A stretch of 64,000 bases of DNA, from assembly GCA_013299105.1 (NCBI GenBank), contig JAAFJY010000006.1, positions 62,001 to 126,000 on the forward strand, in the 5' to 3' direction. Below, in pieces: positions 31,805 to 40,476 of this stretch. This DNA is from Chitinophagales bacterium. GTDB taxonomy: Bacteria > Bacteroidota > Bacteroidia > Chitinophagales > Saprospiraceae. Position numbers and translations under genes: made by a program. The notes below the pieces were generated by a model. That model worked only from the letters and a program-made list of their open reading frames with translations, was not told the DNA's origin and searched no databases. The first letter of the stretch is position 1; each line of letters opens with the position of its first letter.

Positions 31805-34090
31805 TCAAAACTCCAGCCCTGTGACATCCTGCACACTCTCCTCCCCTACCCTATAAGTATGTACCTTACTTACGGGCTTCAACTCCGAACTGGAATTCAA
31901 AACCTGGTAACTGATCTGTTTTTGCCCTGCGGGTAAAGTCACAAAAAAACGTGAAATGCCTTGTGGTCTTACATCTGCCAAAACAGCGCCAGTAATCGGG
32001 TCGCTTACCCGTAGGATCATGTCGCGACGGGTATCTTCATCCAGTTTTTGTACGCCGCTCAGGATCGGGATCACCAAGACTTTTTGAGCGGGACCTCGTA
32101 CAAAACTGGGCAGGGTGCTGGTCCAGAGGTCTTCCTGGCGGTTTTTATCGCGGCTTTCGGCGCTATAGACCAGGGTTTTTCCATCGCTCGCAGGGTTCAG
32201 CCAGTGCGATACTTCGTCTTCGAGGGTATTGAATTCTTTGCCTAGATTCTGGACTGGACCCCATTCTTTCCAAGTATCATCCAAGCGCTGGGTGAAGAAA
32301 AGATCGACCTCGCCCAAGCTGTTTTCCTCGCTGCTGAAAAACAAAGTACGGTTGTCGGCACCGATCATTGGATAACGTTCGGGGCTGTATTGGGTACAAA
32401 AAGGCAATTCATAGGGATTGGTCCAGCCCATGTTGCGGGAACTGCGATTCATCATGTACAAGTCGATGAAAGGCGGGATCGACTCGTGGCCTTGGGCGGC
32501 TGTTTGGGCACCTTCAAAAATGAAGGCTTTGCCATCGGGCGAAAGCGAACCACGCCCTAGCCAAGGCATTTGGTTCACGGTAAGGGGCAGGCCAAAGGGA
32601 GCATTCCAGCCCTTGTAGCTGCAAATGCTGATTTTAAACTTCCCAGCCTGTGATAGGAGCATTTCCCGTCCATCTTGGGTCATCGAAAGGGGCAGGTCAT
32701 CGTCGGAGCTGCACCAAATGTCTTGGCGTTGGGGTGTTTTCCAAAAACCTGTGGTGTCTTTTTGGGCTGAGTAAACGTCCAAGTCGCCCTTGGGACCTGG
32801 CATGGCAAAGTAAAGGGTGCGCTGGTCGGGACTCAACAAAGGGGCTTTTTCGTCTTGTACTGGGGTGCTGAGGCCGGGGACGAGTTCGGGTTTAATTTGA
32901 TCGGCGGGTTGGGCAAAAAGCTCTTCTACCAGGGCCATCCAGGGTTGTTTGTTGCGGTAAAAAAGCCAGGTGCGGTCTTCACAGCCTTTCACTTCGACAT
33001 CGGGATACAAGGGTTTGGCAAAGCTGATCAGTTGCAGGGCCTTGTCCCATTGTTTGCGGCGCTGGTAGGCGGCGATGGCAATTTTCATGCGGTCGTATGA
33101 GCGCTTCGCCGGGGCCGTTTCGCGCAAGTAGCGCTTGAGTACTTCATCAAAATCAGGTTTTCGGACCCCAGCTTTGTACTGGTCGCTGATGTTCCAGCCC
33201 AGTTGCAGGGCACGGATCTGCTGGCGCTCGGTTTCGTTGTATTCCAGGGTATCGAGCAGGCTGCCGTAATTGCACAAGCGGGCAAAGTGGATTTCGGGAA
33301 AATCGTCCAAAATTGACCAAGGGTGCTCGCGCAGGAATTTCAGCGCCAATTTAGGGTCGGTATTGCGCACGGCAGCTGCACATTCGGCTGCCCAACAATC
33401 GCGGGCAATCCAATGCCAGGGGTTGTCCTGGATAAAAGTGCCCATGGCCCGGTAACTGGAGTCGCGCACAAAAGCTTCCCAAATGAAGCCGCCAATCACG
33501 TTGGGGTAACGCGTGCCTCGCAGCAGCAAGATGTCGTTGTAGCGATTGTAAATGGCATTCAGGGTTTGGTAATCGCAGGTTTTCAGGCGCTTGAGGTGCC
33601 AGGCGATCAGGCGAATGGCCCCACTGCGACGGATGGCCTGGAAGGTTTTATCGGGATTGGGAGGCAGTTTTTTGAGCACGTCTTCGTAAGCCAAAATGCC
33701 AAAACTATCCTTGAGGCCCGCAAGCAGCAAGAACTCGAACTGGTTGCGCAGGTCGCGCACGAGGGCCGTATCAAACTCCGGGGCCTTGCGCTTGACCTTT
33801 TTCTGGTCTTTGGCCGAGAGTGTGGGCCAGTGCTGGTAGGCCCTTTCGAGTTGCCATATCTTGGACAGCAGGGAATCGGGGCCGATTTTGGCCATTTGGT
33901 TTTCGCTGTGGATGATACCATAGGCAATGGCCGAGGCAAAGCGCGGTTTTTGTCCTGGTTTTTTCAAAAACCGGATGGCTGCAGGGTAGTTTTTGACGCG
34001 CAGGGCTTTGTAGCCTTTTTTCACCTGGGCTTGAGTGGTTTGGAGAGCGAAGGCCAGGAGAGTGAAGCAAAACAGCAGTCTTTTTACCAT
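31805..34090 (-). CDS. Exported PD40 (WD40-like propeller) protein
   Basis: 761 residues with signal peptide (MVKRLLFCFTLLAFALQTTQAQ). Residues about 20-390 are helical with TPR-like character (KGYKALRVKNYPAAIRFLKK at the start). Residues about 400-660 contain PD40 propeller blades (LLSPDQRTLYFAMPG, LSMTQDGREMLLSQAG, SLSPDGKAFIFEGA, MIGADNRTLFFSS, NPASDGKTLVYSAESRD). The last about 100 residues form a beta-rich domain. In this phylum such TPR-PD40 proteins often end in an OmpA domain, but none is present here. Probably a periplasmic or outer-membrane scaffold. Start 34090 is chosen by the signal peptide; the frame also continues upstream to 34183. Confidence 0.82.
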   Translation of the reverse strand: MVKRLLFCFTLLAFALQTTQAQVKKGYKALRVKNYPAAIRFLKKPGQKPRFASAIAYGIIHSENQMAKIGPDSLLSKIWQLERAYQHWPTLSAKDQKKVKRKAPEFDTALVRDLRNQFEFLLLAGLKDSFGILAYEDVLKKLPPNPDKTFQAIRRSGAIRLIAWHLKRLKTCDYQTLNAIYNRYNDILLLRGTRYPNVIGGFIWEAFVRDSSYRAMGTFIQDNPWHWIARDCWAAECAAAVRNTDPKLALKFLREHPWSILDDFPEIHFARLCNYGSLLDTLEYNETERQQIRALQLGWNISDQYKAGVRKPDFDEVLKRYLRETAPAKRSYDRMKIAIAAYQRRKQWDKALQLISFAKPLYPDVEVKGCEDRTWLFYRNKQPWMALVEELFAQPADQIKPELVPGLSTPVQDEKAPLLSPDQRTLYFAMPGPKGDLDVYSAQKDTTGFWKTPQRQDIWCSSDDDLPLSMTQDGREMLLSQAGKFKISICSYKGWNAPFGLPLTVNQMPWLGRGSLSPDGKAFIFEGAQTAAQGHESIPPFIDLYMMNRSSRNMGWTNPYELPFCTQYSPERYPMIGADNRTLFFSSEENSLGEVDLFFTQRLDDTWKEWGPVQNLGKEFNTLEDEVSHWLNPASDGKTLVYSAESRDKNRQEDLWTSTLPSFVRGPAQKVLVIPILSGVQKLDEDTRRDMILRVSDPITGAVLADVRPQGISRFFVTLPAGQKQISYQVLNSSSELKPVSKVHTYRVGEESVQDVTGLEF

Positions 34091-34270
34091 CGGGCGGGTC
34101 TTTTCGTAATTAATCCGCAATTTAGTAGATGTTACACAACAATTCAACGTATTTTTTAGTTTTAAAGCGGATTTTTTAGACAAATTTGATTTAAAGGCGT
34201 TTTTAAATCATCTTCCAAGCTGCGGGGATGCCCCAATCTAATATTCGGCACCAGCATAAGGTTCAATTTA

Positions 34271-34319
34271 CGCTGGTTCCAGGCCTCTGACCGGAACCAT
34301 CTTACACGCGTTTGTAACA
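34271..34319 (+). repeat. Family C repeat
   Basis: CGCTGGTTCCAGGCCTCTGA, CCGGAACCATCTTACACGCG and TTTGTAA. Closely related to 51403-51452 and, inverted, to the tandem pair at 37379-37430. Confidence 0.65.
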
Positions 34320-34643
34320 CGTAAACTGATCTTTAGCGGATTGAAAACTTACCAAATTACTCGTGTTTGTTCTGAGCCTATTCTAATCACAACAAGGTCT
34401 TTTGCAAAAGCGAAAGCAATTTTTTGAAACACAAAAGGAACCAAAAGCAACAAAAGTACCAAAAGTGCTCCGCTTTAGTAGTTTGTTTTTTAAGTTCGCT
34501 AAACCATCGTAAATGAGTTTTTGCATTAAAGAGGTAAGTACGTCAGCCCTTTTGCCAGTTCAGCTCCGCCAATCAGTAGGGGAGATAATTACGAAAACTT
34601 AAAAAACGCTGTACTTTAGGGCCGCAGATTAAATAAATTGGAC

Positions 34644-34712
34644 ATCTTGGTTGCCTCGCTGCGCGAGGCAACGCAGTTGCGATTTGGTAAGATGTATTCG
34701 TGGCTTGTCACC
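34644..34712 (+). repeat. Family D repeat, shortened copy 10
   Basis: ACATCTTGGTTGCC, the hairpin GCCTCGCTGCGCGAGGC, AACGCAGTTGCGATTTGG and TTCGTGGCTTGTCACC. Confidence 0.7.
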
Positions 34713-34840
34713 TAGGCCTGACCATGCAGCTTGATTCTTCCAAAACCAAAGTGGCTTCTATTGCCTTGTCTTATTTCGCGATTTTGCAAAAACACAATGC
34801 GGACGAGTCTAAACTCAGCCGAGCGTGGGGGCTTGCGACC

Positions 34841-35650
34841 TCATTTTTTTTCCATCTCCTTCAATCGCTTCTTCAGCAATGCCCCCAAATTCGGTTCTTC
34901 CTTCAGCACCCGCTCCAGCCAGTCGAGGCGTTCTGCTTCGGGTAGTGATTTGAGCAATTGGCTGTATTCGGGCGCTTTGGCTACAACCGTAGCACTTGCA
35001 GTTTTGGCTGCTTTTACAATCGAGTCGTCTATTTCAAAGTACTCGATGAAAGCCTTGAGTTTTGCGTCTACTCTTTTAAAGTTTGCGGGCAAGGGAGGGG
35101 CGATGTTCCATTTTTCGTCGTCGTCATTATCATCATCTTCATCGTCGTCTTCATCGTCATCCATTTCTGCGCTGGCGTTCATTTTAGTCCACAGCAGGTA
35201 CAATGAGATGTAGTTCCCTGCGATCAATTCGTCTCTGGTTTGGCCCAATGCGTGGATGTCAAAATCATCGTCTTCCATCCATTCACCTCCTTCCTCGTTG
35301 GCAAAATACAGGTCGAGCAGGTAAACCTGGCCTTTTTTCTCTAAGCGGATGTAATCTCCACTCCAGTCAACCTCTGTGCAGTATTTGGCCAATTCCTTGG
35401 GCTTGATCAAGTCCACAGGCAGTTTGAGCAGCAGTCGGCGGGTACCCCAATTGGCAAAATAAATCATGGCATCGAAGTAGTGCTCGACTGCCCATTCGGG
35501 TTCTTTTTTGAAATCGCCGTAGTGATACACAAAGGTAGCCGTAGTAGAAGTCACCTCACCCCTGCTCGACCAGGAATCGACCTCTTCGCGCTCGGAATTG
35601 CTCAGTGGCCGGTCGATGGTTTTGAATTGGTAGCATTGAAATTCGCTCAT
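34841..35650 (-). CDS. Conserved acidic protein of unknown function
   Basis: 269 residues, soluble. The N-terminus (MSEFQCYQFKTIDRPLSNSE, then YHYGDFK and YFANWGTRRLLLKLP) matches, from memory, an uncharacterised family found in many phyla with the pattern YxYYEFxAIDRPL and ANWGT. A strongly acidic spacer (DDDEDDDEDDDNDDDE, residues about 165-180) separates it from a helical C-terminal third (LPANFKRVDAKLKAFIEYFEIDD ... LDWLERVLKEEPNLGALLKKR). The function is unknown and no motif suggests catalysis. It precedes the hipBST operon on the same strand by position only; there is a 53-bp gap from the hipT-like stop. Confidence 0.82.
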   Translation of the reverse strand: MSEFQCYQFKTIDRPLSNSEREEVDSWSSRGEVTSTTATFVYHYGDFKKEPEWAVEHYFDAMIYFANWGTRRLLLKLPVDLIKPKELAKYCTEVDWSGDYIRLEKKGQVYLLDLYFANEEGGEWMEDDDFDIHALGQTRDELIAGNYISLYLLWTKMNASAEMDDDEDDDEDDDNDDDEKWNIAPPLPANFKRVDAKLKAFIEYFEIDDSIVKAAKTASATVVAKAPEYSQLLKSLPEAERLDWLERVLKEEPNLGALLKKRLKEMEKK

Positions 35651-35703
35651 CTTGGTGTTTGCCGCGATTGGTGATTGGAAAATTTTCTTCCCTCCAGCTC
35701 CGT

Positions 35704-36642
35704 TTACCCCTTTTTCAGGCGTTCCATCCTGCTGCGCATCATTTGCTGATATGCAATTTTGTCTGTTGCTTCTAAAAATGATCGCTCAATCCAGGCTTCG
35801 CAAGCTGGCATATTTTCTTCAAAGTTGAGTAAAGTTGCTTCGATCAATTTGACCGAAAGCTTGAGTTTTTCAAAACCCAAGTAGATAATCAACTCTCGGT
35901 AACGGAACTCTTTCCGCTTGCCAGCCAACATCAAGGCCATTTCTTCTTCTGCTTGTTTCATGATCAAGGTAGAATTGATCAAATCATAGGCGGGCGATAA
36001 TTCAACTTTTCCATTTTTGGTGATCATGGAAAAATTTTTCAGGTGCATATCTTCATTGCCCGTCAGAAAACAAAAAAGAATGAGCTTGAAAAATTTGAGC
36101 TTCTCCAGGGAGGGAAAAGTACAATGTTCATCTATCAATTTGATGACCTTCTCGATGCTGTAGTTGTACTTAGAATCCCGGTTTACGCCTGCCAATTGAG
36201 CAAAGTCCTCGGTAGCGATTTTGATTTTTTTGCCGACTCGGTCAAAACGCTTAATGAAATAACTCAAGCTTCCGTCTTTGCACCAAATCAAACCATGAGT
36301 GGGGGTGCTAATTCCCACTTGATCGGCCATTTTCATGGTTAGGTCTTCGTTTTCGGGCATCTGCGCATAAGTGCCGTGTTGGGGTTTGATGATGAATTGA
36401 CCTCCTTGGGTTACAATGTTAAATACCTTGCCTTTTTTATCTAAAACCGCGCTCAACTTGGGTTGCACCCCTTGAATTGACATTTTCCCTACCCTACTCA
36501 CCGCTTCGGTCAGCTGTTCTGTCTTGGTGAAGGGGAAATCGTGCAACTGATCCAAAGATTTGTCCAGCAAATGTAATCCGGTCAGTGTGTATCGCCCCGT
36601 GTCAACTGGCAGGTAAGTGATTGGGCATTTATTCATCTTCAT
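35704..36642 (-). CDS. hipT: HipT-like kinase toxin (HipA C-terminal domain)
   Basis: 312 residues, a HipA-type serine/threonine kinase lacking the N-terminal subdomain, which is encoded separately upstream. Kinase features: Gly-rich loop MSIQGVQPKLS (55-63), ATP-binding lysine in FIIKP (86), DRVGKKI region, catalytic Asp198 in TGNEDMHLKNFS, and metal-binding Asp220 in SPAYDLINS. All catalytic residues are kept. Known HipT enzymes phosphorylate an aminoacyl-tRNA synthetase (TrpS in E. coli) and stop translation; the target here is unknown. The ATG overlaps the hipS stop by 14 bp. Third gene of the hipB-hipS-hipT operon. Confidence 0.9.
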   Translation of the reverse strand: MKMNKCPITYLPVDTGRYTLTGLHLLDKSLDQLHDFPFTKTEQLTEAVSRVGKMSIQGVQPKLSAVLDKKGKVFNIVTQGGQFIIKPQHGTYAQMPENEDLTMKMADQVGISTPTHGLIWCKDGSLSYFIKRFDRVGKKIKIATEDFAQLAGVNRDSKYNYSIEKVIKLIDEHCTFPSLEKLKFFKLILFCFLTGNEDMHLKNFSMITKNGKVELSPAYDLINSTLIMKQAEEEMALMLAGKRKEFRYRELIIYLGFEKLKLSVKLIEATLLNFEENMPACEAWIERSFLEATDKIAYQQMMRSRMERLKKG

Positions 36643-36946
36643 GCAATTTGAAACTTACCGCTCCAACGAGGTCTTCCCCTGTTGCTGCCAATTGGCCAAA
36701 ATAATCATCATGATTGAGTTTTAAATTGCGCAGTAAGGCTTCCAACAAAACCCCTTCGGGCAAAAGCCCCTCGAAAAAAGGTGGAAACTGCTCGTATAAG
36801 TAATGGCGCTGCCCCAAGGGCATGGTCAGTGAAACTGCGGCCCCTTCATAATCAGGAAGATAGCTGAAGACATAATGCCTAGGCTCATCTTTTTCCTCCA
36901 ATATACCCGCCCAACGATTGTGGACAAAAATCTTAGCCTTTCGCAT
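36629..36946 (-). CDS. hipS: HipS-like protein (HipA N-terminal subdomain)
   Basis: 105 residues matching only the N-terminal 'couple_HipA' domain: AKIFVHNRWAGILEE, YVFSYLPDYEGAAVSLTMPL, PFFEGLLPEGVLLEALLRNL and ATGEDLVGAVSF. In characterised tripartite systems this small protein, not HipB, is the antitoxin that binds the kinase. Both junctions overlap by 14 bp (with hipB before and hipT behind), which implies translational coupling. The sequence runs in step with an intact frame, so this is a true split gene and not a frameshifted hipA: the hipT ATG lies inside the hipS C-terminal codons in a different frame. Confidence 0.88.
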   Translation of the reverse strand: MRKAKIFVHNRWAGILEEKDEPRHYVFSYLPDYEGAAVSLTMPLGQRHYLYEQFPPFFEGLLPEGVLLEALLRNLKLNHDDYFGQLAATGEDLVGAVSFKLHEDE

Positions 36947-37163
36947 CTCTGAATTCTTTCATCAAGGGACTTTGGAACTCCAGGCGAATGTTGAGCACCC
37001 ACAGTACTTTCAATAATGTGTCAAAACGAATACTGGTTTTGCCATGCTCAATATCGTACACCACAGTTTTGCCCACCCCCGCCAAATCTGCACATGCTTC
37101 CCTCGACAAACCAGCCCTTTTGCGGTGGTACAAAACCATGGTAGCCAAATCAGGTGCCTCCAT
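36933..37163 (-). CDS. hipB: HipB-like XRE-family antitoxin/repressor
   Basis: 76 residues with a single Cro/C1 helix-turn-helix (VLYHRKRAGLSREACADLAGVGKTVVYDIEHGKT is the HTH region, followed by IRFDTLLKVLWVLNIRLEF). The C-terminal dimerisation strand of HipB is recognisable. It is the first gene of the operon, 10 nt downstream of the predicted transcription start. Two operator-like sequences cover its promoter (37180-37233), so it is probably the autorepressor. Confidence 0.9.
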   Translation of the reverse strand: MEAPDLATMVLYHRKRAGLSREACADLAGVGKTVVYDIEHGKTSIRFDTLLKVLWVLNIRLEFQSPLMKEFRDAKG

Positions 37164-37179
37164 TTTGCTGCTTTAACGG

Positions 37180-37233
37180 TAAAAATAAGCACTTTTTGCT
37201 TAATTTGCAATAGGAAAATGCGCTTTTTGGCTA
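37180..37233 (-). promoter_or_regulatory. hipBST promoter with embedded operators
   Basis: On the minus strand: TTG (37210-37208), a 20-bp spacer and TATTTTTA (37187-37180, seven of eight consensus bases). The spacer contains the perfect inverted repeat TAAGCA-AAAAG-TGCTTA (37202-37186). A second, weaker site (TAGCCAAAAAGCGC, 37233-37220) lies upstream. The matching blocks are 31 bp apart, three helical turns. A CGGTAAAAAT phrase also occurs twice (37177 and 37249). Confidence 0.72.
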
Positions 37234-37378
37234 AAAATACTGCTATGGCGGTAAAAATTAGGTTTTTTGGGGATGCAAGCCAATCGATTGATTTTAGATG
37301 TGATTGGGGGCAAATATGATCCTTGTTATTGTTTTGAGCAAGTTTGGGGATACACGTTGCAAAGGTGTAGAAGAGGGT

Positions 37379-37430
37379 TCCGGTCAGGAGACCGTGAACC
37401 AGCGTCCGGTCAGGAGACCGTGAACCAGCG
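37379..37430 (+). repeat. Family C repeat, perfect 26-bp tandem pair
   Basis: Two identical 26-bp units (37379-37404 and 37405-37430). Each contains CGGTCAGGAGACCG, a hairpin with a five-pair stem and AGGA loop, followed by TGAACCAGCG. A degenerate relative is at 37658-37676. Confidence 0.85.
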
Positions 37431-37504
37431 GTAGGAATTTATCAATTTCAAATTTCAAAAATCTCAAATCGTGCAAATGAATGCTAAAACTACTTCAAAA
37501 TTTG

Positions 37505-37556
37505 CCAGCGAGCCCGCAAATCATATGTCGTCTATCGTATATTGTCTATCGTATGT
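37505..37556 (-). repeat. Family E head fragment
   Basis: CCAGCGAGCCCGCAAATCA and then TATGTCGTCTATCGTATATTG-like simple repeats, as at 13561, 53941 and 61676. Confidence 0.6.
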
Positions 37557-37600
37557 TAAAAAAATAGAAAATTTAAAATCACCCCCTGTGTTAATAATGC

Positions 37601-37638
37601 AAAAAGCGACCCTCCCAAAAGAGAAGGTCGCTTTTTTT
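37601..37638 (-). terminator. Rho-independent terminator
   Basis: AAAAAGCGACC ... GGTCGCTTTTTTT, an 11-pair stem with T-runs on either strand. It lies 45 bp after the stop of the SUFU gene on the minus strand. Confidence 0.88.
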
Positions 37639-37682
37639 GATGGCGTGATGTCCGGTCAAGAAACCGTTAAACAAACAAGCGC

Positions 37683-38264
37683 TCAAAGCATGACCTGCTT
37701 TCGGGTCACCTTGTACGGATCAAAATCAGGGTGTTTCCAAAATGCTTCAAAGCCAATTTTATCATAAACTTTCAGCTCATCCGAATACACGGGGTACATA
37801 CAAGCGAGATTGATCTTGTAGTCTGCTCCAATGTCGATGTTGAGGAAATGCTCTTTTTCCAAGAAATTGGGTGCAAAGATTAAAAAGGAATCCATTTCAG
37901 AATCATCGCTGATTTGATCGCCAAAGTCGATGCTTTCGCCATAGGAAAAAGGACATTGTCCGCGCAGGTTATTGGCAATCCATCCGATTGCCAGTCCCCA
38001 TGAGTGGTCATTTGATTCTACACAAATGCACAGTTCAGCGCGGCCCAACTTCCACTCCGGATGATCAACCAAAGACAAACCATAAGTAAACGCGGTGATA
38101 TTGCCGGGTTCTGGGACGTTCTCATACACAAAGGTCGTGACTCCAGGCAGCCCTTTGGTAAGACTTTCGTCTTGGTAAATCACGGGCTCCTCTTCGATGA
38201 GGCGTTCAAGATAGTCAAGGTAGCGTTCAGCGGGGCTGGGCTTGTTATTTGAAGCTTTGGGCAT
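37683..38264 (-). CDS. SUFU (suppressor of fused) domain protein
   Basis: 193 residues, soluble, one domain. The features fit the bacterial SUFU family: YLDYLERLIEEEPVIYQ, TTFVYENVPEPGNITAFTYGLSLVDHPEW, RAELCICVESNDHSWGLAIGWIANNLRG and DSFLIFAP. Bacterial SUFU proteins are often immunity proteins of polymorphic toxin systems. No toxin gene is seen next to this one, so it would be an orphan. An upstream ATG at 38318 gives 18 extra basic residues; 38264 (MPKASNNK) is preferred. It ends before a strong terminator. Confidence 0.78.
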   Translation of the reverse strand: MPKASNNKPSPAERYLDYLERLIEEEPVIYQDESLTKGLPGVTTFVYENVPEPGNITAFTYGLSLVDHPEWKLGRAELCICVESNDHSWGLAIGWIANNLRGQCPFSYGESIDFGDQISDDSEMDSFLIFAPNFLEKEHFLNIDIGADYKINLACMYPVYSDELKVYDKIGFEAFWKHPDFDPYKVTRKQVML

Positions 38265-38381
38265 GGAATTTGGATTTTGATTACGCGCATTCAGGCGCTT
38301 TGTTTTTCCTTTTAGCATGTGTTTAAACCTCTTATGTTAAACACACGCTTAGACTCTGAGATTGCCTTTTACAAATAAAAA

Positions 38382-38416
38382 AAAGCCTCCCCACTCATCA
38401 CCGAGCAGGGAGACCT
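38382..38416 (-). terminator. Rho-independent terminator after the repeat-protein gene
   Basis: On the minus strand: GGTCTCCC, a loop, GGGGAGGC, then a run of T (read from AAAAAAAA on the plus strand). It is 40 bp after the stop at 38456. Confidence 0.85.
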
Positions 38417-38455
38417 TTTACCTAAAGTTCCGAGTGAACAATCTGAAACTCGAGA

Positions 38456-40018
38456 TCAATACTTTACACCCAAAGCTTTGAGTGTTTCGAAGTCCAGGTT
38501 ACCAACAGGCAAGTTGTTGTCCTTCTGAAACTTGGTCAACGCTGCTTTGGTTTGCAAGCCCATTACGTTGTCGACTGGGCCTGGATCATAACCACGAGCC
38601 TTGAGAGCTTCCTGGATCTGACGGGTCGTAGCGCTGGTTACGCGGTCGCCACACAATACTTCACGCCATTCAGTGAAACCACCTTTTTTCACCAAGGTGC
38701 GCTTGGTTACGTCGGAGTATTCAGCTGGAATTTCGATGGTACGGGTGGTAGCAGCATTGGCCAGTTTTTGCTTGGTTAAAGTCTGGTACTCAGCAGGTAC
38801 TTCCGTTTCCTGTGGAGCCACACCAGCGGCACTCATGCCATCGCCACCTGGGTAGCGCTGCACTTGAATGGTGCTGAACTCTGCTGGAATTTCTACTTCA
38901 CGAGTGGTAGCAGGGGTTTTCACCTTGCGTACAGTCATCGTTTCGTATTCAGCAGGGATTTCTACTTCGCGGGTAGTAGCTGGAGACTTTAGTTTGCGAA
39001 CCGTCATGGTCTGGTACTCCGCAGGTACTTCTACTTCGCGGGTAGTAGCAGGCGTTTTGATCACTTGCTTGGTCACCGTGCGGTACTCAGCAGGAGTCAC
39101 TTCTTCACGAACAGTAGCAGGCGTCTTCAGCTTGCTGACAGGTACAGTGCGGTACTCAGCAGGAATTTCGATCGTGCGTACACAATCGCCACCTTGGGCA
39201 GTGTAGCCAGCAGCGCAAGGCTTAAGCTGTTGCTTGGTAACGGTCTTGTAAGCAGCAGGAACTTCCACCAAACACCAAACCAAACAATCGTTAGGGTCGG
39301 CGCTTAAGCAGTTGCGGTCGCCTACTTTCTTTTCCCAACGGGTAGAAGCAGGAGAAACCTCAACCCGCTCGGTCACGGTTTCGTACTGTGCAGGTACACG
39401 CTCCAAACGGGTAGAAGCATCTTTCACCACTACGCGCTCAGTTACGTTTTCATAAACGGCTGGTACAGGAATGAAACGCTTAACTTCTGGACGAAGCATC
39501 ACGCGCTCAGTTACGGTTTCGTAAACGGCAGGTACGGTTTCGAGCTTTTTTGAAGCTTCTTTAACCAATACCCGCTCGGTCACATTTTCGTAAACGGCAG
39601 GTACAACTTCCAACTTTTTAGAAGCCTCCTTCACCAGTACGCGCTCGGTCACGTTTTCGTAAACGGCAGGTACAACCTCCAACCGCTTGGAAGCAGCCTT
39701 GGTTTCAACGCGCATGGCTTGAGCCGACAATTGGCTGGCGCTGGAAGTAGCTCCGCCAGTCGCTAAACGCTTGGAGCCTTCTTTTACCAGCACGCGCTCG
39801 GTTACGGTTTCGTAAGCGGCAGGAACGATTTCCACCCGCGAAGAAGCGGCTTTCACCATCATCCTTTCGGTAGTGGTGGTGTACTCGTCCTGAATCAAAC
39901 ATTTCGCGTAACATTTGCCAGGTTGGCTGTTGGGCGGTAGATCACCCGGAACTTGGGCATTAAGAAAAATGGCGCAACTGGCAATAGCCAGCACCATCAT
40001 TGAACGTAAAGTTCTCAT
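38456..40018 (-). CDS. Exported 23-residue-repeat protein with peptidoglycan-binding domain
   Basis: 520 residues. The signal peptide is MRTLRSMMVLAIASCAIFLNAQ. The body is about 15 degenerate copies of a 23-residue unit of the type VYENVTERVLVKEASKKLE-VVPA, changing in the second half to EYRTVTK-type units with PATTREVE and IPA. Two neighbouring units are almost identical at DNA level (39541-39680), which points to recent duplication. Cysteine-containing inserts interrupt units 7 and 8 (CLSADPNDCLVWC; CAAGYTAQGGDC). The C-terminal about 65 residues are a peptidoglycan-binding module (TTRQIQEALKARGYDPGPVD, GLQTKAALTKFQKDN). It is probably a periplasmic, wall-associated protein. ATG 40018 is preferred to an in-frame TTG at 40027. 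Confidence 0.88.
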   Translation of the reverse strand: MRTLRSMMVLAIASCAIFLNAQVPGDLPPNSQPGKCYAKCLIQDEYTTTTERMMVKAASSRVEIVPAAYETVTERVLVKEGSKRLATGGATSSASQLSAQAMRVETKAASKRLEVVPAVYENVTERVLVKEASKKLEVVPAVYENVTERVLVKEASKKLETVPAVYETVTERVMLRPEVKRFIPVPAVYENVTERVVVKDASTRLERVPAQYETVTERVEVSPASTRWEKKVGDRNCLSADPNDCLVWCLVEVPAAYKTVTKQQLKPCAAGYTAQGGDCVRTIEIPAEYRTVPVSKLKTPATVREEVTPAEYRTVTKQVIKTPATTREVEVPAEYQTMTVRKLKSPATTREVEIPAEYETMTVRKVKTPATTREVEIPAEFSTIQVQRYPGGDGMSAAGVAPQETEVPAEYQTLTKQKLANAATTRTIEIPAEYSDVTKRTLVKKGGFTEWREVLCGDRVTSATTRQIQEALKARGYDPGPVDNVMGLQTKAALTKFQKDNNLPVGNLDFETLKALGVKY

Positions 40019-40476
40019 GTGTTGCAAGTATTTGGTTTTCGGTTAAAAAATATGAGAAGTAGATTGTTCCGCAATAAATACAATAGATCTCGACACCGTT
40101 AACGCCGCTTGAACGTTAACAGAGAGATTACATATGGGCGATTTTTTGGTAAATACTCAGTGGTTCTACCAAGAGCGCGTTTAAAGATTTGGAGCTTAAC
40201 CGGAAAACGAGTCAAATTTTGAATAATCAAGGCAGGAAAAGCGGAGTTATGCAGCGCATAATGAGCATTTTCCTAACAACCTTGTTTTATAAGGGTGAGT
40301 CGAAATTGGGCCGTTTTACGGCAAACAAAAAATTTTAAACATGCTCTAAAGAGAGGCTAGGAGCTCATGGGAAGGGATGATTGCTGCCACAGAGAATATT
40401 GGGCATCAGGGCAACCACTTGCACAAATTTAGTAGCTTATCCGACAAATTTCCAATAACATCCAATTTTTTCTAAG
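40019..40476. other. 460-bp intergenic region, nothing recognised
   Basis: Upstream of the repeat-protein gene and downstream of the HD gene. AT-rich, with a CTCGACACCGTTAACGCC... AACGTTAACAG partial inverted repeat near 40090-40125. No frame or repeat family could be assigned. Confidence 0.5.

Follow-up and report, generated by a model that had tools for sequence, protein, structure and literature searches.

A putative HipBST operon of the Legionella subclade and its predicted HipB operators in a Saprospiraceae-like member of the Bacteroidota

Which kind of HipBST system is encoded by a tripartite hipB-hipS-hipT operon in a 64,000-nucleotide stretch of bacterial DNA (hereafter the window), and which DNA does its HipB repressor bind? 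The HipBST operon type has been defined (mBio 2021, PMC8262856), an SIQ group is listed among the HipT loops (eLife 2023, PMC10627512), and the Legionella (Lp) subclade has been described as spread over the FCB group, with the target of HipT given as unidentified there (Lin et al. 2023, PMC10653801). Our reading, at a probability of roughly 0.87, is that the window carries an Lp-subclade HipBST of a Saprospiraceae-like Bacteroidota, in which, by analogy with Legionella, HipS would act as the antitoxin and HipB would repress through two predicted operators, O1 and O2 (Table 1). The host is called Saprospiraceae-like because the nearest HipT relatives are mostly from Lewinella/Saprospiraceae MAGs (57–65% identity; best 80 of 432 relatives).

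Table 1 Features of the hipBST locus, in positions of the window
Feature	Positions	Strand	Description
hipB	36933–37163	minus	XRE/HTH_3 repressor of 76 aa; residues 28–37, AGVGKTVVYD, are the recognition region
hipS	36629–36946	minus	Presumed antitoxin of 105 aa; HipA N-terminal subdomain on its own (Couple_hipA); PEGVL replaces E. coli PEGW
hipT	35704–36642	minus	Ser/Thr kinase of 312 aa (HipA_C), N-subdomain 1 absent; S55-I-Q loop, D198, D220
hipBST promoter, −33 element	37208–37210	minus	TTG
hipBST promoter, −7 element	37180–37187	minus	TATTTTTA; TAnnTTT type; last four bases inside O1
Operator O1 (predicted)	37164–37183	minus	TTTACCGTTAAAGCAGCAAA; touches hipB ATG; 13/14 consensus positions; PWM 25.1
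Operator O2 (predicted)	37236–37255	minus	TTTACCGCCATAGCAGTATT; 72 bp upstream of O1; 12/14 consensus positions; PWM 26.6
TAAGCA-AAAAG-TGCTTA repeat	37186–37202		Present, chance-level, unconserved; outside the system in the present reading

Genes, domains and nearest characterised relatives

The gene content described in an earlier note was confirmed. Three minus-strand open reading frames are joined by two 14-bp overlaps (hipB/hipS and hipS/hipT), and all three products score above the Pfam cut-offs: HipB matches HTH_3 (35 bits), HipS matches Couple_hipA (81 bits), and HipT matches the HipA_C kinase from residue 53 (156 bits). As expected of HipBST, the HTH, HipA N-subdomain and core-kinase functions are carried by separate genes in the order B-S-T, and HipT, which has no N-subdomain 1, keeps the Gly-rich loop and the catalytic and Mg residues. 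SIQ occupies residues 55–57. In all 81 aligned HipT sequences (the window and the best 80 of 432 relatives), S55 does not vary, nor do D198 and D220, the catalytic/Mg aspartates. The relatives come from one scan in which 447 pattern stretches gave 432 relatives, the best 80 being kept; 79 of these 80 have the hipB-hipS-hipT order, and the other, L091, starts at a contig edge. The 14-bp overlap is correct for the window and is no constant of its relatives: judged by longest-ORF starts, it occurs between hipB and hipS in 32/79 and between hipS and hipT in 4/79 (best 80 of 432).

The operon had been likened to the E. coli type, of which the HipBST arrangement and a presumably autoregulatory HipB stood but the subclade did not. 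Against PDB chains, HipT matches solved structures across 307 residues at 1e-90, with 306 bits to HipT(Lp) versus 86 bits to E. coli O127 HipT; HipS reaches 109 bits with HipS(Lp) but 56 with HI_0666 and 51 with the chain from E. coli; and the best match of HipB is HipB(Lp) (75 bits), E. coli HipB being absent among its PDB matches at E ≤ 0.01. By these chain similarity scores, used without a tree, the nearest characterised relatives are thus HipB/S/T(Lp). The SIQ loop of the window is one of the two single-serine forms (SVQ/SIQ) of the Lp subclade, and SIQ was found in 73, SVQ in 7, and SLQ in 1 of the 81 loops (window and best 80 of 432 relatives). Likewise, HipS has V66 and L67 after PEG instead of the E. 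coli-type Trp; residue 67, at the interface, is L in the window and Q or M in 77 of the 80 aligned rows, which counts against the present reading. The evenly spaced 18-nt operators of the Lp subclade, with their 6-nt inverted repeats, are represented here by two sites, imperfect in one arm. Overall, the operon is assigned to the Lp subclade of HipBST, making it a common, known kind of system of a known subclade in a phylum already known to carry it.

Its closest experimental counterpart, HipBST(Lp) of L. pneumophila (lpg2368-2370; PDB 7vkb/8ezr/8ezt), resembles it in gene order, in giving the best PDB match for all three proteins, in the SIQ/SVQ loop, in a HipS without the Trp, and, compared via the Legionella adelaidensis promoter, in the operator motif and its spacing of about 71 bp. 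It differs in belonging to another phylum and in having three operators rather than two, with an O1 core that ends 24 nt before the hipB ATG, whereas the predicted O1 of the window touches the ATG. HipBST(Ec) of E. coli O127:H6 (PDB 7ab3-7ab5), whose target is TrpS, likewise has the three-gene HipA split, an HTH repressor, and a core kinase, but carries an SIS loop, and in its HipS Trp65 follows PEG. Operator motifs of the Legionella type are reported absent upstream of hipBST(Ec) in the discussion of PMC10653801. In the HipBA systems of E. coli K-12 and Shewanella, a kinase core again pairs with an HTH partner, but HipA holds the N-subdomain in one chain and HipB is the antitoxin, both unlike the window system; the operator arms of HipBA are five nt long (PMC10653801).

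That the window might instead encode an O127-type HipBST phosphorylating tryptophanyl-tRNA synthetase is, in our estimate, very improbable. The gene order and domain split are the same, and 86 bits to the 7ab3-7ab5 chains is a significant similarity, but it stands against 306 bits to HipT(Lp), a loop that is SIQ and not SxS, and the missing HipS Trp65. Furthermore, TrpS and GltX both failed to rescue HipT(Lp) toxicity in Legionella (PMC10653801 section 13), so that the assignment to the Lp subclade weakens the expectation of a synthetase target for this HipT.

Promoter and predicted HipB operators

The promoter proposed earlier (TTG, a 20-bp spacer, and TATTTTTA) is present and is common to the relatives: across 75 of them, the first two positions of the −7 box are T in 88% and A in 93%, and the −33 element is T/T/G in 64/70/51%. 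The combination of TTG and TAnnTTT is presumably of the Bacteroidota type. This conserved −7 box extends into O1, so that HipB bound there would mask the polymerase site and probably also the transcription start.

O1 and O2 are predicted as two copies of a motif, TTTACYG-N6-CRGTAAA, that is common upstream of hipB to relatives from many bacterial phyla. When scored with a matrix built without the window (Table 1), both are well above the next-best site in the whole 64 kb, at 13.0. At a threshold of at least 11/14 positions, 212 sites were counted in 80 upstream stretches (the window and those of 79 relatives, including L025, which is partly N); 50 first-order Markov shuffles averaged 6.3 sites and never gave more than 11. 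Three sites were found in 54 of these stretches, two in 19, four in 3, and none in 4. O1 was found in 75 of the 79 relatives (from the best 80 of 432); among the exceptions, the contig of L034 starts inside hipB, and L051, L077, and L081 have a different motif. It should be noted that the counting motif was chosen by visual inspection of 26 of the 79 upstream stretches, from relatives that are not independent, so that the two analyses that follow are the cleaner tests.

A protein-blind search for pairs of strict sites 59–75 bp apart, run over 395 phylum genomes, matched 8 genomes, with 13 loci in 9 distinct places; all nine lie directly upstream of hipB-hipS-hipT, and a reversed-pattern control over the same genomes had 0 matches. 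The genome of the window is missing from the strict matches, a point against the main reading, because neither O1 nor O2 agrees with the strict pattern at every position, each missing one or more. The second test was the Legionella adelaidensis promoter (421 bases), which has sites at −43, −114, and −186 with PWM scores of 31.3, 24.6, and 26.0; the best score among 300 shuffles of it was 15.2. Its O1 reads TTACTG-N6-CAGTAA and has an 18-nt core that stops 24 nt short of the ATG, the first arm carries ACCG in both O2 and O3, and the gaps are 53–54 bp. For the HipB-bound operators in Legionella, the text of PMC10653801 (section 9) describes an EMSA-bound core of 18 nt lying 24 nt upstream of the ATG, gaps of 53 bp, and substitutions that make O2 and O3 asymmetric; these predicted sites fit that description. 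The predicted operator of the operon thus has a sequence that can be stated and located without a protein search, and the window sites carry the motif that agrees with the operators bound by HipB in Legionella.

A decayed or domesticated copy, with HipT toxicity lost and HipB kept as a local regulator, appears about as improbable as the O127-type assignment. The window has two operators where most relatives have three, a third site near −164 not being found in it, which counts against the main reading as well, and among five genus genomes the host alone has such a HipT, the other four having none above 38% identity; against this, the three frames are intact, the catalytic residues are kept, and O1, the promoter, and the spacing are conserved.

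Through O1 and O2, a two-site layout suited to repression holds, though for DNA other than that proposed in the earlier note, whose interval (35704–37233) stops just short of O2. The second site envisaged there, which we take to be TAGCCAAAAAGCGCA (37219–37233), has no match to the operator motif, and the strong matches of the window lie elsewhere. That HipB would bind O1 and O2 rather than the repeat in the promoter spacer belongs to the main reading and shares its probability. HipB binding at this TAAGCA-N5-TGCTTA repeat, beside O1 and O2 or instead of them, is the least probable alternative and can be set aside: the repeat is perfect and sits between the −33 and −7 elements, but when the 120-nt upstream was shuffled 1000 times, 47.5% of the shuffles contained at least one repeat with 6-bp arms and a 3–8 bp gap, a comparable repeat occurs at that place in only 4/74 relatives, the seven nearest relatives preserve 4–9 of its 17 bases (15–17 of 20 for O1), the best PWM score there is −7.8, and the conserved motif lies elsewhere in 75 of the 79 relatives and agrees, in a Legionella, with the sites described as experimentally bound.

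A broader set of HipB targets within the host genome was considered and rejected, as the 18-nt pattern with at most one mismatch gave 128 matches versus 333 for the reversed control. One isolated, perfect 20-bp HipB-type operator (L098; C45:62499-62518, PWM 25.2) was observed in this genome among beta-propeller sensor-like repeat genes, away from hip genes; it may be due to chance or be a lone extra HipB target.

Operator spacing and HipB residue 33

Adjacent sites 55–80 bp apart (n = 123 pairs) fall into two spacing classes that differ by one DNA helical turn: 41 pairs are at 60–62 bp and 82 at 69–73 bp, with none at 63–68 bp. By locus, 21 belong to the short class and 49, including the window, to the long class; the O1–O2 distance of the window corresponds to about 7 turns. 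The other 10 loci have no pair at 55–80 bp, and some of them have sites 122–123 bp apart, as if a middle site had decayed.

Residue 33 of HipB is T or S in 77 of the 80 aligned sequences and N in three, and the three N33 loci have TTCCCC/GGGGAA-like sites at the usual places, 71–72 bp apart. Three further N33 loci were found in 395 genomes of their phylum. One of these (L137) has a GGGGAA half at O1 and a CAGTAAA-type O2, which counts against a clean switch, and the other two (L138 and L142, from one genome) are cut at a contig edge, with a single visible half ending GGGAGA; that search also gave three T33 loci, whose sites are of the ACCG or ACTG type and are weak in L139. T33N tends to go with a different operator, but the six N33 loci all belong to one clade, and the operator change therefore represents one or few events.

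These observations led us to a tentative rule, for which we would offer slightly less than even odds. Across phyla, HipBST-Lp operons would carry a single type of HipB operator in two to four copies, all on the same DNA face and separated by about 61 or about 71.5 bp, and HipB T33N would switch the operator from TTACYG/CRGTAA to TTCCCC/GGGGAA. The spacing and sequence of the operators would then follow simple rules across phyla, and HipB-HipS-HipT complexes bound to sites on the same face might then contact one another or loop the DNA. In the running text of the literature searched, wide operator conservation, the two spacing classes, and the residue-33 link were not found, though these points may be in print.

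Proposed mechanism and genomic setting

By analogy with Legionella, HipT would phosphorylate a target and growth would stop, unless HipS binds HipT and ejects the Gly-rich loop, neutralising it. In Legionella, HipT is toxic and is neutralised by HipS, not by HipB (PMC10653801 section 8), and HipB binds the operators (sections 8–11 of the same paper). Binding of HipS is reported to cause a loop-to-helix shift that blocks ATP binding (Nat Commun 2022, PMC9325769). We infer that toxicity, neutralisation by HipS, and operator binding by HipB carry over to the window organism. HipB would not be an antitoxin but would repress the operon by binding the two 20-bp palindromic operators, O1 spanning the last bases of the −7 box together with the likely transcription start and the leader, and HipT (with or without HipS) held on HipB would probably add co-repression. 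A clean member in the Bacteroidota offers a second place to seek the target of HipT(Lp).

HipT at 53% identity or more is encoded in 7 of 199 family genomes, the host included; the next HipT in these genomes is at most 42% identical, except for one 43-residue fragment at 57%. In a plasmid search, 403 records matched, all below 60% identity, the best being a Legionella, and a phage search gave no match. PADLOC returned weak matches only, such as HipT to PDC-M03A, and Rfam had 0 matches in 34000–39000.

The 7.67-Mb genome of the host has four HipA_C matches. A second hipBST-like operon was observed on its contig C27 (L009; 727–960, 971–1294, and 1291–2301), with a HipT-like kinase of 336 aa that is 38% identical and has an SISGVQ loop; with 103 bits to HipT(Lp) and 78 bits to E. 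coli HipT, it fits neither subclade clearly.

About 53 bp downstream of hipT lies orf269 (34841–35650, minus strand), which encodes 269 aa with an acidic D/E-rich run. It was rejected as a fourth operon member, since homologues occur in two of the four other genus genomes without nearby hip genes (one of them on contig C4 of a four-contig genome), and none was found among the match-strand ORFs of the best 80 of 432 relatives. Upstream of hipB, at 37378–37429 (genome C56 99378–99429), a unit of 26 bp, GTCCGGTCAGGAGACCGTGAACCAGC, occurs twice in tandem; it is a small dispersed repeat with 11 genome copies at up to 3 mismatches and 0 in the reversed control. The upstream neighbour of hipBST (37683–38318, minus strand) codes for a protein with a SUFU domain (32 bits in Pfam), and the other four genus genomes gave no match to it. 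At 38456–40027 (minus strand) lies a gene for a 523-aa protein with many near-identical repeats of the VPAVYENVTERVLVKEASK type, which ends in what appears by eye to be a peptidoglycan-binding domain.
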